Positions 24,123-59,862 of a stretch of 64,000 nucleotides of DNA are shown one piece after another. The position numbers and the translations under genes were made by a program. The DNA is taken from NCBI GenBank assembly GCA_916610825.1, contig OU744446.1, forward strand, positions 31,386,445 through 31,450,444, written 5' to 3'. The first letter of the stretch is position 1. Each line of letters opens with the position of its first letter. The stretch is from Haliclystus octoradiatus. Lineage: Eukaryota > Cnidaria > Staurozoa > Stauromedusae > Haliclystidae. The notes under the pieces were generated by a model. The model was not told the DNA's origin, ran no database searches, and saw nothing but the letters and a program-made list of their open reading frames with translations.

Positions 24123-26934
24123 TCCTCTTCCGAACTTCATGTTTATATAACTTGGATGGGGCCGTGTGAAGGGCTGTTACTTTTCTAATCACTGATCTCC
24201 ATCGTGACTCAGGTTTCACGGCAAAACGGTCTTGATTATCCCACATAGCATTATTTTGTAGTTAGCATATGCATATCTTAACCATTCAAATTGATATACA
24301 ACACTTGGTGATCATTAATAGTAAGATTTCTCTTATATAGTGTAAACCTTATTTATTGCAATTCGGGTGAGTGAAATTCTCGCTAATATATGAAGTTTCC
24401 AAATGTAGTTAGAAAGTTGCGTGCTTGTTGAATATTTGCAGCGTCTGAAAGTCATCATAGTGCTTGTTACATTATTGTTGTGATTAGTAATAATTGTTTT
24501 CATGTTGGATGTGCAGTTATAGCTGACTTTAAGTGTGATTTTGTTGAAAATTTTGCTGAGTATATTGACTTGGGGAAATGTTTCGTTACAAGTGTAAGAA
24601 AAGTTCTGCCGATATTTGTTTGGACACTTTTATTGTAAGGTGGGTTAAATCATGAAATGACCCGCCTTTTTCGGTTTATTTGGTTGTTGCCTGTTCTTGT
24701 ATGTTTTGATTGATATGAAAATTTTGGATCATGGCCGCTTTAAGTGCGTCTTCATAAATTGATTAATTTTTTTCGAAAATTTTGTTGCCAGAAGTCGGAA
24801 ATCGTTTGGTTGATTGTTGTGGGGATATGCTTCAGTATAGTAGGCGGATGATTGGATTTAGTATTGATGTGTAATGATTTTGTTTTTATGTATAGACTAT
24901 TATAATATTACCCAGAGCAATGTTAACTACTTTATTGGGCATTCTGCATTTGAAATTGTCGTTTTTTATATATCATAAACTATAAGCAAAGGCTGTATTT
25001 AGTACTATATAAAAGTTTCTCAAATTTATAGGGTTTTGGTAGGAAGAGTTTCCAAAAATTTTCTTAATATTTAAAGTTGTGTAAAAGGTAAGAAAAAACT
25101 CTAATCAGGAAAATTGTTTTGTTTTTCGAAGAAGTTCGAAGAAGTACTATGGGTATAGTCCTATTATAAGTTTTTTAAAACGATGTTCTTATAAAAATCG
25201 TGTATTGATTAATAGTGGTTATAATTATAATTATTAAGTGTAAAATGTATAATTATTATTCACAGTAGACTCAAGACTGTATTATAAACGTTATAATTGT
25301 GCACGTAAAAATCGTGTATTTAATAATCGTTCAATCCTACAATTAATCTTCTTCTACTTTTGAAATGATTCATGGAATCGGATGCTTACCTCATTCGTTT
25401 GATCGTCGTAAATGTGTATCTATGATATTTAAATACATTGCATGATGTATTCGTTAATATTAATTTTAACCATGTCAGTTCAATCTATGTGGTCTCGATC
25501 ACATGATTAACCTAGATGTATCGTCTTTTCTTCTTAAGGACCCATCCCATGTAAACATGCAATTAATCAGAAATGACGAACCTTGCTCCATATAGTGCTA
25601 CTTTGTATGATCTAGGTTAATTAAACGTGAGGCAATACAAAATTAATTGGATATCACTCTAATTAGTTCGACTCCAATTAGATTCTTATCTTAATTGCGC
25701 GGCTGACTGATTATTTTCATGGTTGAAACAAACGACGATCAGATATGATATTAAAAATTCTGCGTCTTTATAAACTACACACGCGAGATAATAATAGTAG
25801 AATTTCTCATTTGATCAGTTTGAATAATTATTTTAGCCAAATTGATCATACCGCGATCCAGTTAGTCTAGTTGCTGCGTTTTATTATGAAAATGCTGATG
25901 AAATATATCCAATTTGAAATTTCACTTTTTCTGATACTATAGTTTTGCTGAATGTCTGTTCGAAGTATATCATCGCTTTCTTGGCGATACAATATACGTC
26001 GAAAAATATATGTTTAAGTTTTCTTCCAAATCCTGACTTCATGTTGCACTACTTAGTACAGCTAATAATTCTTCATGAGTATATGTGGTTAATGTAAATA
26101 GTAAGACTTACCCGTATGCAAGAGATGACATTGATAGTTCTACACTTGTTTTCATGAAAACGAATCAATTACAATTTGAGACAGTGTATACAACACTGTT
26201 CTTTAAACCGTCGTTATAAGGCGGAGCAACCATTGACATTTATTGTAGTTTTGTTGTTTTTCATGAATTGTAAGAGTGCAGGTTATAGTCGGTGCTTATA
26301 AACCAACTCTAGAGCCCACTACTGGTGCCATGTTGGTTACTATGACAACTATTGAATAAACCACGCCTTTCCACATTTAGGATTTTTATTTCTTCGCATA
26401 GCGGTACCGTTTCTGTGGCATGAGGTCAACCAGCGCAAGATGGCAACTCTTTTCTAATCGCTAACTTTGATGTAGGTTAACTTATGACTTGTACTGATAA
26501 GCATTCAATTGCTTTTGTTAGACGAATGAATTATAAAACAGTGTCCAATACACTGCTTGATAGGTTCTTCATTTATTGTTCCTGATCATTATTCATTTGT
26601 TACTAGATTTTTGATCATGTTTTTTCTTTCTTTATAAGACTATGCAACATTAATAGTCGGTAAAAGTCTGCTATCAAAAGCCTGGTTGAAACGTGAAAGC
26701 TAATTAACCGATAACTATGTGATGGTAACTATTTTCAAACCGTTACTGTTTTCTGATGAAAGAAATTAACACCCTCGTAGACTCATGTATGGCGCCACGT
26801 CATGTGAAAGATGGCTAGATGTGTATCAAATCTCAATTAAGGCATGATTAAAGCTTACATCACATCTTCATATTGGGTCTTCTCTATGTTGCACCCGATG
26901 TTGCATTCTCATATTGTATATCATTATTCTTCAG

Positions 26935-28867: not shown

Positions 28868-40288
<11,421 letters not shown>

Positions 40289-41870: not shown

Positions 41871-42001
41871 ACAATAGCTTTTTTTCACAGGACTGATTTA
41901 CGTAATAAACTAGAGAATAAACATAAATTAATTGATTACAATAATAAATATATATATAATAATAATATATGGCGAAAGAGTCAAAGAATACACATTCTTT
42001 A

Positions 42002-42044
42002 CTGTTACTCAAGTTTCACGCTTTTCACAGCGATCTTCAGACAG
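42002..42044 (-). ncRNA. Hammerhead ribozyme motif (palindrome left arm)
   Basis: This is the exact reverse complement of 42074-42116: stem I CTGT/ACAG, core CTGAAGA, stem II CGCT/AGCG, GAAAC, loop TTGA, cut site GTA. The closing position of stem II is a U-U mismatch, so activity is uncertain. Confidence 0.5.
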
Positions 42045-42073
42045 ATTTTTTACTCAAAGATTGAGTAAAAAAT

Positions 42074-42116
42074 CTGTCTGAAGATCGCTGTGAAAAGCGT
42101 GAAACTTGAGTAACAG
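42074..42116 (+). ncRNA. Hammerhead ribozyme motif (palindrome right arm)
   Basis: Type I layout: stem I CTGT (42074-42077) pairs with ACAG (42113-42116); core CTGAAGA (42078-42084) matches CUGANGA; stem II is CGCT/AGCG around GTGAAA; GAAAC is at 42101-42105; stem III is a 2-bp AC/GT with loop TTGA; the predicted cut follows GTA at 42112. The first pair of stem II is U-U rather than G-C. Confidence 0.55.
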
Positions 42117-42154
42117 TAAAGAATGTGTATTCTTTGACTCTTTCGCCATATATT

Positions 42155-42329
42155 ATTATTATTTACCGCTCTGTCAAATGAAGACATAGAGCCCTATATT
42201 ATCTGCTATTAGATAAACATAAATTTTATTAAATATATATATATATATATATATAATAAGTATAGGTTTATCTAATAGCAGACAAAATAGTGCTCAATGT
42301 CAACATTTGGCAGAGCGGTAAATAATAAT
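42155..42329. repeat. Inverted repeat 2 of the nest
   Basis: ATTATTTACCGCTCTGTCAA (left) is inverted as TTGGCAGAGCGGTAAATAAT (right); the inner arms CTGCTATTAGATAAAC and GTTTATCTAATAGCAG flank a (TA)n centre. Confidence 0.85.
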
Positions 42330-42456
42330 AATGGTGATAGATCAAAGAAAACACATTCTATATAGAATAAAAAACTGTCTGATGATCGCAGTAGCGTGAA
42401 ACTTGGAGTTACAGTAAAGAATGTGTTTTCTTTGATCTATCACCATTATTATTATA
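42323..42456. repeat. Inverted repeat 3 of the nest
   Basis: AATAATGGTGATAGATCAAA (left) is inverted as TTTGATCTATCACCATTATT (right), abutting the previous inverted repeat. The right half holds the hammerhead motif at 42375-42414. Confidence 0.85.
42375..42414 (+). ncRNA. Hammerhead ribozyme motif in inverted repeat 3
   Basis: Stem I is CTGT/ACAG (42375-42378 with 42411-42414), core CTGATGA (42379-42385), stem II CGC/GCG with loop AGTA, GAAAC at 42398-42402, loop TTGGA, predicted cut after GTT at 42410. The stem II closing pair is U-U, as in the 42074 motif, which it resembles. Confidence 0.55.
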
Positions 42457-42551
42457 TATATATTTTTATTTTATTTATATTTTTTTTCACCACATTGATA
42501 ACTCATCTTGACTTAGGTTATATACTGAAGTCAGTTCCTTGTTCGCTCACT

Positions 42552-42603
42552 GAGCAGTACTGATGAAGGCTAATGGCCAGAAACATGTACTTGTCTGCTG
42601 CTA
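42552..42603 (+). ncRNA. Hammerhead ribozyme motif, direct-repeat copy 1
   Basis: A 7-bp stem I (AGCAGTA at 42553-42559 with TGCTGCT at 42596-42602, one G-U), core CTGATGA (42560-42566), stem II GGC/GCC with loop TAATG, GAAAC at 42580-42584, stem III ACA/TGT with loop TGTACT, cut after GTC at 42595. The stem II closing position is A-A; non-canonical closing pairs are known among Penelope-type hammerheads, from memory. Confidence 0.65.
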
Positions 42604-42811
42604 TGTATGTCTCAATTGCGCATGCGCAATTTTGAGCACTATCGACTTGGGATGTGTCTATACTATTTGCGATATGCATTGCCCACTACTTCGGTAGTTT
42701 GAGCACTCTGGTATGGCACAGATGTTTTTTTCATGTGATGAATTTTTTCACCACATTGATAACTCATCTTGACTTAGGTTATATACTGAAGTCAGTTCCT
42801 TGTTCGCTCAC

Positions 42812-42867
42812 TGAGCAGTAGGCCTACTGATGAAGGCTAATGGCCAGAAACATGTACTTGTCTGCTG

Positions 42868-42870
<3 letters not shown>
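42812..42870 (+). ncRNA. Hammerhead ribozyme motif, direct-repeat copy 2 (stem I interrupted)
   Basis: The core CTGATGA (42827-42833), stem II, GAAAC, stem III and GTC (cut after 42862) are identical to copy 1, but GGCCTA (42821-42826) is inserted between the stem I strand GAGCAGTA and the core. Stem I must bulge or be shorter. Confidence 0.4.
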
Positions 42871-42901
<31 letters not shown>

Positions 42902-42925
42902 CTACAAGGTTAATTAAATACGAAC

Positions 42926-43468
42926 TTAAATGTTATTAGATGCTGTAATTTTATTGGTATTTAAATGCTTCTCAAGGAGACTTTTGAAACTTTTCCTTTT
43001 GGAAACCTCCTTCATTGTAGACGGTAGATCATTCCACTTGTGAGCACCAGCATATTGAAATGATGGCTTGATGAATGCGTGGCGATGGCTTGACTTGATG
43101 TATATGTCATTATGGGTGTGAGATCTTGTCTTGGTCGTATTTGGTTGTTGAAATATATGGGAGAGCAGAGGAGGAGCTAGATTGAATTTTAGTTTGTGAG
43201 TGAGCATTAGTTGGTGTGAGGTTATTCTGTCTCTGACAGAAAGCCAGCCATGTCGGCTTTGCATATCAGAGATTCGAGTGCGGTAATTACAACGGCGTAC
43301 TGCCCTCATTCCTCTGTTTTGTAATCTCCGGAGGCGGTCAAGATGTTGGACTTTGCAATTCTCCCATGCAACAGCGCAGTAATCAAAGTGTGGCAAAACA
43401 ATAGAGTTATAAATTAATTGAACTGATTCTTGCGGAATGAAACGTCTTATGAATTTGAAGACACCCAT
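42926..43468 (-). pseudogene. 5'-truncated LINE: reverse-transcriptase C-terminal fragment
   Basis: This frame of about 180 residues starts inside a reverse transcriptase: RRFIPQESVQLIYNSIVLPH, FDYCAVAWENC, LRRLQNRGMRAVRR, and an end rich in Lys/Asn. The pattern LYNSLVLPHFDYC...W.NC...L.RLQNR is typical of the thumb and C-terminal region of CR1/Jockey-like non-LTR retrotransposon ORF2 proteins. Endonuclease and palm domains are absent, so it is a truncated copy and not a gene. A second, more decayed copy lies at 14032-14190. An 11-bp inverted motif (AAATACGAACT / AGTTCGTATTT) lies just outside both ends. Confidence 0.85.
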
Positions 43469-43489
43469 TTGAGGACATCAATATGAGTT

Positions 43490-57431: not shown

Positions 57432-59826
57432 ATGGTGCATTCAAACGTTTGGTTTAGCCATCCCAGAACTTACGGTCCAGGATCAAGATCATGGTAAGAA
57501 TACTTATTATGATGACCCAAGGGTTTACCACTAAAAGTTTTATTCCCATTATCGTGTCGATAAACACCAAAAAGAACATTTGAAATATCAAAATACTACC
57601 CTATATTGTTTTTGAAATTTTTTACATATATGCCAATCCTTGTAAAATTTTGAGCTCAGCTATTGTAGCACTTTTAGGACTAGATTTCATTCATGATGTC
57701 ATGTTTAACGAAGAGTCAAAATATGTGATATGAATGTATGTAAAATTATCCGAAAATGTGTTGTTTACAAGCCTGTATTAAGCTGTGTAATTTAATTTCT
57801 AAATCGCTAATATATCTCTAGACTAGAACCTAGGCAGTGTAAGATACAGCCATCTGAGGTCAGGGATTGCATGTGGAATATATTCATTGAGCAGTAAATT
57901 GTCGTCAGTTTAACTGCTGTTGAGCCATAGGAAGAGAATAATGTTTATGTATAAACTAAGGTGACGCCTGTGCGTAAGAAACTGGATTGAATTTGTTGAG
58001 AAGATTCAAGATCATGGAAATTCCCATTACTGCATTGAAGTATCAAGATTGATTGGATTAATTCAGGACATTTGAAAATAAATTTGTTAGAGGATTTTGG
58101 TCATACAGTATGACTGATCACGCAAGTTCTTAGTTCAGAGTATCTGGTCGATTGTGGCTAGAGGTGCACCGATCAGTAAATTTGCCGATCATCTACACCT
58201 ATCAATATTTATTGATAAAGTTTTCAATAATCGGTTGGTTAATCGGCAAACTGATTATTTGCCGATTCGAATATAAAATAGATTCTATTTAATGGTATTA
58301 GATGACAAGCCTAGCATGCAATTTGCAGACAAGAATTTTCAGACTTGAAGCGGATTTCAGACTATTTTTACCTTTGTGAAACTCTATTTATCACTTTTTC
58401 CCATTAAAATTTATCAAGATATCATAGATTTCAGACTATTTTCAAATTTTGAATTATCATGTCTGAGTTTGGATGCGGTTATTTAAAGATTATAAAATTA
58501 AAGCACAGGCAAGTTACTCTGACAATAAATTTAAAAGTATTAAAGTTAACAAACTGTAACAAATATTTCTACTATATAAACGTCGATGTATGTCTGTTTG
58601 TATCTACTGTATTCGAGATTCACGCTTCACATGGTAAACGTATCAAGTCCATACTTTCCGTGGGGTATCTTATAATTTTTTGCTGCAACATAGGCCATGT
58701 TTTATGTTCATATCTTGATATTCCTTTAATTGACGACCTGAGGCGTATCTTTTCCGTATGATTCTCTTGCGGCTCCATAGAAAGAACGAATTACATTCTC
58801 ATGTTCGTCACGCAATCTCTTTCACACTGACTGACCTTCAGTTCTATTGTTTATTTATCGTTTAGGCTAACTTCTAGCAATTAATTTTTTTTTTCAAATT
58901 CCACCCAGCAGAGCAGATCCACTTCACTAGTATCCCATATATTTGTAATAGATGAAGTTATTGTGGTTATTAAGATTAACCGACACTTCCAATTATTTTC
59001 CGATTAATCGATGCTCCTCCAACTGTGGCTCAAATCTTACAATAAAGGAGCCTTTTGTCTAGAAATGGAAGAATGGTATGGGGGTCTTTGGTACTGTAAG
59101 GCGATGCTGTCTCAATTACTAATTACTATTTGGTCATTTTCAAATCACAATTTTCATTTGATAGAAAACTATTCCAAATTGAAATAAATAAAAACTAGTT
59201 GTATGAATAAATGAAACATCATTGCAATTGCTCACACAGTCTTAGAATTAGATTCTAAATGTTGAGCAAATCTTCAACTCCTTTTGTGTATTACTAAGTT
59301 TATTGCAAGTTTCCAGCAAAGACTTGATTGACATATTTAGTCTTTTCCAAAATACTTGCTAAATCAATTTCAGGGTTTTTGAAATGGTTGTTTCTCATAT
59401 TGACAGCTGTTATAGGTCCCTGTCTACATTCCACTTGCAAGTCTTCTATTGGACAAGCGTTTGTCTACCATGTATGTGTGGTTCAGATCCTGCCTCTTGT
59501 TTAAGTTAATTATCAGCAGAATCGCTGTTTTGCAGTCGTGGTCATATATATATATCATATATATATAATAAAGTAATTGTGTGGGCAAAACATCAATTTG
59601 AGTGCTCAATGCTAAAAGCAGAGCAATATAAATAGTAGATCAAAGATCACGAGTTTATTCCGTTACTCTGAGTTTCGCGTAAAGACGCTCTTCAGACGGT
59701 TTTATTAAATGAAAAATCATTACGGTGTGCTCAAGTATATACATAAATTAATGAAGCTCAGAGTATATACATGAATAAACGAAACTCAGAGTAACGGAAT
59801 AAACTCGTGATCTTTGATCTACTATT

Positions 59827-59862
<36 letters not shown>

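Follow-up and report, generated by a model that had tools for sequence, protein, structure and literature searches.

Five hammerhead motifs of two classes

Five hammerhead-like ribozyme motifs crowd into about 0.9 kb of the window (the whole stretch of 64,000 nucleotides analysed here). The sequence bore out all five layouts noted in a first-pass annotation, at the same positions within a few bases, as well as its two sequence classes, one with a U-U and the other with an A-A mismatch at the base of stem II. We scanned the window strictly for the invariant core with at least three stem II pairs, at least two stem III pairs, at least four stem I pairs and an H17 other than G. Four of the five cluster motifs passed; in the fifth, the 5′ strand of stem I carries a 6-nt insert, which made it fail. 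The scan also found a hammerhead at 59658-59701 on the minus strand. In first-order Markov shuffles, passing sites numbered on average 0.0005 per 910 bp (2000 shuffles, maximum 1) and 0.05 per 64 kb (40 shuffles, maximum 1). The cluster motifs are listed here, with covariance-model scores for class 1.

42000..42046, minus strand: class-1 hammerhead, passing the strict scan; A at position N7; H17 at 42006; predicted cleavage between 42006 and 42005; 58.1 bits
42072..42118, plus strand: class-1 hammerhead, passing the strict scan; predicted cleavage after 42112; 58.1 bits
42373..42416, plus strand: class-1 hammerhead of subfamily a, passing the strict scan; predicted cleavage after 42410; 63.3 bits
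42554..42601, plus strand: class-2 hammerhead, passing the strict scan; predicted cleavage after 42595
42812..42870, plus strand: second class-2 hammerhead, with the 6-nt insert in stem I

We aligned 18 distinct class-1 variants from the window and from fetched loci (alignment A1). Seven of the 11 pairs of the fold change on both sides, and the covariation score was 0.287, compared with 0.167 when shuffled and 0.036-0.082 when slid. Four stem I pairs and three stem II pairs (columns 3-6 and 15-17) are never broken in the 18 variants. The count of further pair types was below that of the shuffles (9 versus 11.4), and 498 of 500 shuffles equalled or exceeded it. At the base of stem II, 14 variants are unpaired, two have G-C and two have U-A, and the outermost stem I pair is unpaired in 13. 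Stem III has 2 bp and is invariant, so that it is uninformative on covariation, and H17 is A or T in every row. Because stems I and II covary around the hammerhead core, we conclude on these comparative grounds that class 1 is a type I hammerhead, for which self-cleavage is predicted.

A covariance model of the 18 variants gave 56-63 bits at 42373, 42000, 42072 and 59658, scores that are not independent since the model already contains each of these four window sites or a sequence identical to it. The model did not detect class 2 at E values up to 10. Rfam searches returned no hammerhead across the window at gathering score, and in 41900-42950 none of the 52 matches with E values up to 10 was a hammerhead. 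Searching the genome with only RF00008 gave no matches and is uninformative, as control genomes also gave none. Single-strand folding returned the exact three-stem hammerhead for none of the five motifs (z from -0.27 to -2.56).

Layout of the cluster

The first-pass annotation had described three abutting inverted repeats and a direct-repeat pair. These repeats are real: the inverted ones have arms of 105 nt at 99%, 75 nt at 87% and 44 nt at 95%, and the direct-repeat copies measure 78 and 51 nt. The inverted repeats are not three separate units, however, but two head-to-head insertions, and the middle one consists of the tails of insertions 1 and 2 placed face to face. The suggestion that ribozyme-bearing retroelements had repeatedly inserted into TA-rich DNA is supported by other copies in the genome, with the correction that two element types are present: pairs of terminal repeats (pLTRs) of a probable Penelope-like element (PLE), and a retrozyme array. 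We consider it probable that the cluster consists of three retroelement insertions, of these two types, in TA-rich DNA, as follows.

41953..42057, minus strand: left arm of insertion 1, a PLE pLTR with class-1 hammerhead; short 3′ end, without tail
42061..42231, plus strand: right arm of insertion 1, a PLE pLTR with class-1 hammerhead; long 3′ end
42232..42252, no strand: (TA)n between the two facing tails, the presumed target of insertion 2
42253..42359, minus strand: left arm of insertion 2, a PLE pLTR of subfamily a; tail to about 42322
42362..42458, plus strand: right arm of insertion 2, a PLE pLTR of subfamily a; without tail, ends in a TA-rich repeat
42482..42595, plus strand: retrozyme array, 5′-truncated unit starting at unit position 148
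42596..42870, plus strand: retrozyme array, full unit (267 nt), then the common 3′ end TGCTGCTA
42871..42897, no strand: (TA)n, the 3′ junction of the retrozyme array

Two further PLE features lie elsewhere in the window.

59564..59835, no strand: further PLE head-to-head insertion
24393..24874, minus strand: decayed fragments of a PLE reverse transcriptase ORF (tblastn, best E 1.8e-32)

In both PLE insertions of the cluster the 3′ ends face outward into TA-rich repeats. The 3′ end of the left arm of insertion 1 lies in an AT-rich repeat, and the tail of the right arm spans about 42162-42231. In insertion 2, the 5′ end of the left arm falls 7 nt beyond the predicted cleavage site, on its downstream side, so that this arm lacks the ribozyme core. 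In the insertion at 59564..59835, the antisense left arm carries a tail and the hammerhead at 59658-59701, which is of class 1 with a G-C stem II base, and the right arm (from about 59780) has a truncated ribozyme and no tail.

Beyond the array, an ORF at 42926-43477 on the minus strand, which we take to be the C-terminal part of a LINE-like protein, had no Pfam match. An exact pattern from the 3′ end of this fragment, a search that diverged copies would escape, matched only at this locus and points to no role for the fragment in the cluster; by that one pattern a LINE source of the TA repeats is unsupported. The window also contains a MoaC-domain coding sequence at 28868-29518 on the minus strand (Pfam E 6.7e-52) and a tRNA match at 36193-36263 on the plus strand (Rfam RF00005, 44.2 bits).

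Class 1 in a probable Penelope-like element

We searched 261.9 Mb of genome and counted copies as exact-pattern matches. The class-1 pattern matched 390 times and a class-2 36-mer 378 times, and the reversed-pattern control of each had no match. Neighbour counts rest on the first 100 listed places for each exact pattern. Among the matches listed, class-1 neighbours within 5 kb were head-to-head in 25 of 28 cases, and in 13 of 13 when they lay within 200 bp.

Some copies encode a reverse transcriptase (RT). At L067, two inverted 266-bp pLTRs that are 99.6% identical and both contain the ribozyme adjoin the two halves of an RT ORF. Four larger head-to-head insertions (L068-L071) have arms that run into RT coding sequence. 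The arms are equal in 5′ extent in L068 (98.9% over 3.4 kb) and unequal in L069, L070 and L071, reaching 476 bp and about 2.1 kb in L069. A search with the PLE protein gave 71 genomic matches that were scored, 62 of them without an internal stop. Among 20 neighbouring RT matches within 6 kb, 11 were head-to-head, nine were on the same strand and none were tail-to-tail, so that RT neighbours are tandem or head-to-head. The pLTRs flank the ORF in direct or inverted orientation. The protein matched the PADLOC RT_X profile with E = 1.5e-5 (L069) and 9.7e-4 (L115). Searches of Pfam (its RT models included), the PDB, PHROGs and NCBIfam gave it no match with E below 0.01. A candidate GIY-YIG motif (GIIY..CYIG) near the C-terminal end is conserved by eye in a second alignment (A2), and no profile for the GIY-YIG endonuclease domain matched. 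The targets at PLE ends are AT-rich simple sequence, as judged by reading the listed sites, unscored against background.

Because the pLTRs of RT-encoding copies carry class-1 hammerheads, class 1 belongs to an RT-encoding, probably Penelope-like element. Viral contigs yielded no relative. In a separate region (G000:C2:37437581-37466523), five class-1 sites with a CTCG loop variant lie on one strand within 29 kb, suggesting local amplification.

The retrozyme array and its possible mobilisation

Class 2 in the cluster forms an array of 1.4 retrozyme units of about 261 nt, with a GUC-type hammerhead. The unit (261 nt, 267 in the window) has a GC content of 0.42, and the longest stop-to-stop frame in a tripled unit is 61 codons. 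Class-2 neighbours within 5 kb, among the matches listed, lay on the same strand in 27 of 30 cases and head-to-head in two, and 23 of the 30 were spaced by 260 or 261 bp. Such units, short, non-coding, arranged in tandem and bearing a type I hammerhead, are of the kind called non-LTR retrozymes. They resemble the metazoan retrozymes of PMC7229834 in their tandem units with type I hammerheads (about 150-450 bp, dimers upward), in a GC content below 45% and in the co-existence of PLEs. They differ from the retrozymes described there in their A-A stem II base and in the common 3′ end, which at the listed sites is mostly joined to AT-rich repeats; one axolotl motif in that study has a U-U mismatch as its stem II base.

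The pattern GTACTTGTCTGCTGCTA occurs at 572 genome sites. Of the first 100, 30 continue into another unit and 70 are 3′ ends, 57 of which run into AT-rich DNA and 13 of which do not. The AT-rich flanks of these listed sites comprise 27 with (TA)4 or more, eight with TTA or ATA repeats and 22 that are otherwise AT-rich. The 5′ ends are variable. Common 3′ and variable 5′ ends fit repeated copying of a putative circular RNA from one start, and copying of circular RNA has been proposed for metazoan retrozymes (PMC7229834). In the cluster, hammerhead-bounded RNA units, presumably circularised, would have been copied for 1.4 turns into (TA)n, starting at a common point that lies 6-8 nt past the cleavage site in the downstream direction.

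PLEs have been put forward as the movers of retrozymes (PMC7229834 and PMC7761336), and PLE mobilisation is plausible but unproven here. That a LINE or some other element moved the arrays is a serious possibility, although well short of an even chance. Retrozyme neighbours mostly share a strand, unlike PLE pairs, a LINE-like fragment adjoins the array, and the tail of insertion 1 has no word of at least 8 nt in common with the retrozyme. Against a different mover, clusters of retrozyme and of class-1 sites lie within 1 kb of each other at 4 of 57 places compared with 0.15 expected, a proximity that could come from a common target preference alone. The tail of PLE subfamily a also has TTGAGCACTAT and TTGTCTGCT (11 and 9 nt) in common with the retrozyme; in a post hoc comparison, a word of at least 11 nt was shared in 63 of 5000 shuffles and a further one of at least 9 nt in 5 of 5000. 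For a longer PLE stretch, a common 11-mer arose in 58 of 2000 shuffles, and three other tails have words of 8-12 nt in common with the retrozyme. For 8 of 16 retrozyme arrays, the locus fetched also contained PLE RT or class-1 motifs, a count without a background rate. At L024 (G000:C8, about 4352000-4353900), two retrozyme arrays meet tail-to-tail with a short TA repeat between them, opposite to the arrangement of the PLE pairs.

One tail per head-to-head pair

The near-identical PLE copies in this one genome are a natural record of PLE insertion products. Copies of the pLTR commonly stop at one of two 3′ ends: a short end, which reads ..CACCATTATTATTATA in subfamily a, and a long end that extends about 70 nt further and so includes the tail. 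We determined tail states for the first 100 listed ends of each subfamily, out of 200 for subfamily a and 239 for subfamily b. Among these listed ends there were 53 head-to-head neighbour pairs, 29 of subfamily a and 24 of subfamily b, three of the latter (C2:34370167-34371454) resembling local duplicates that may not be independent. Exactly one tail was found in 49 of the 53 pairs, two tails in two and none in two. Shuffling the tail states gave a mean of 26.8 one-tail pairs and a maximum of 43 in 20000 shuffles. In one two-tail pair (L067) the right pLTR continues into the ORF; in the second (C2:21175238-21177134) the right site is followed by an RT match, and the site beyond it, going outward, is short. 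The 53 pairs include insertion 2 and leave out insertion 1 and the insertion at 59564-59835, both of which are also one-tailed.

Much of this architecture is known. The hammerhead PLEs of PMC3846280 and PMC11167929 likewise have direct or inverted pLTRs, most commonly head-to-head, a minimal hammerhead in the pLTR, AT-rich targets and an optional tail on one of the inverted pLTRs. Unlike those elements, the present ones have a 2-bp stem III with a small loop, carry the tail on exactly one arm in nearly all listed pairs, and in many cases consist of a pair of pLTRs only. Head-to-head pLTRs with or without a tail, hammerheads in PLEs and retrozymes all have precedents, and the elements are of known kinds. 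The possibly unpublished part is the tail count per pair, which we did not find in print in the literature surveyed, where subscription papers are thinly covered.

Sources and 5′ ends of the arms

The loop-II variant was identical in both arms in 24 of 25 listed pairs, compared with 42% expected by chance. Private variants were common to both arms in 2 of 44 sequenced pairs (L099 and L113), and private letters were shared three times and unshared 21 times; as evidence on the source of the arms, such sharing is only suggestive.

We located 5′ ends in the 88 arms of 44 pairs, picked mainly for short spacing. Since the rule halts at paired mismatches, the counts are lower bounds: at least 26 of 48 arms of subfamily a stop at -49..-45, and at least 21 of 40 of subfamily b at -55..-49, in both cases past the ribozyme. 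We infer that this pile-up just upstream of the ribozyme marks the 5′ end of the RNA.

PLE templates that start at the ribozyme cleavage site were also considered and not adopted. Eight of the 88 arms, from 5 of the 44 pairs, start within 3 nt of the cleavage site, and two further arms, of L099, read as such starts only through private mismatches. We rejected this template because the site is itself a small palindrome (TTACAGTAA) and because more arms pass through the ribozyme to the upstream stop.

A two-sided priming model

On our reading, insertions 1 and 2 are head-to-head pairs of pLTR copies from two PLE subfamilies, and the 5′ region of the PLE RNA holds a minimal type I hammerhead. We propose a mechanism in which the PLE protein would cleave both strands of an AT-rich target, and each target 3′ end would prime reverse transcription inside the element RNA, one strand at an outer start site, so that the tail remains, and the other at an inner one. 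Both cDNAs would extend toward the RNA 5′ end, stopping at the same or at different points, and their 5′-end sides would become joined. Should the RNA begin just upstream of the ribozyme, a short way from the start sites, only a pair of pLTRs would result. The one-tail count favours such priming from two sides, in which the choice of start site on one strand is coupled to that on the other. In its most general form, which we advance tentatively and put a little below an even chance, PLE insertion would be obligately paired, both strands of a single AT-rich target being primed together, with one outer and one inner start on RNA from one source and exactly one tail per completed insertion, and retrozymes may use the same enzyme one-sidedly.

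Biochemical work provides some of these steps. Acting on AT-rich DNA, purified PLE protein cleaves both strands and extends them, with two RT start sites that coincide with the limits of the genomic tail (PMC11167929). In the same study, ribozyme mutants left insertion unaffected, the cleavage site yielded no reads, and no difference of RT start site between the strands was seen in vitro. Since it reports no such strand difference, that work does not explain the one-tail pattern; with no difference seen and mutants that insert normally, it shows neither the coupling proposed here nor a need for the ribozyme.

A different origin of the pairs is self-priming: the 3′ end of an antisense PLE transcript, or of the first cDNA, would turn back on its own strand and be extended along it, and the resulting hairpin would integrate. 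Head-to-head rotifer Penelope pLTRs with an optional tail on one have been read in this way, on an antisense template (PMC3846280). The centres of some pairs here are near-perfect palindromes (L077 and L104), and the private variants common to both arms in L099 and L113 also agree with a copied hairpin. A copied hairpin, however, should give arms with equal 3′ ends, which is not what the one-arm tails show; moreover, arms as unequal as those of L069 and the filler in some centres (L083) are against it. Because of the one-tail count, the unequal arms and the filler, target-primed reverse transcription on two sides, from two RNA start sites, fits better, and we regard self-priming as unlikely.

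Two-sided priming has a counterpart in LINE-1 twin priming, where a second event primes inside the RNA and produces a 5′ inversion. Both involve two priming events on two sides of one target and an inverted piece. Unlike in twin priming, both sides here mostly end at the two alternative 3′ ends of the element.

The annotation had also offered recombination between ribozyme-bearing elements, rather than separate insertions, as the source of the cluster. Related tails do face each other at (TA)n, with arms that are 87% complementary. The head-to-head structure, however, recurs at many unlinked places, so that no local recombination is needed, and we consider this explanation very improbable. That the short palindromes are MITE-like or fold-back DNA transposons mobilised by a transposase, as short inverted-repeat units in high copy number at AT-rich targets might suggest, is less credible still, given arms that are the ends of RT-encoding copies (L068-L071), vary in 5′ extent and have two alternative 3′ ends. 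By their form, pLTR pairs could nevertheless pass for MITEs or for microRNA precursors, and sub-threshold Rfam microRNA matches do occur in 41900-42950.
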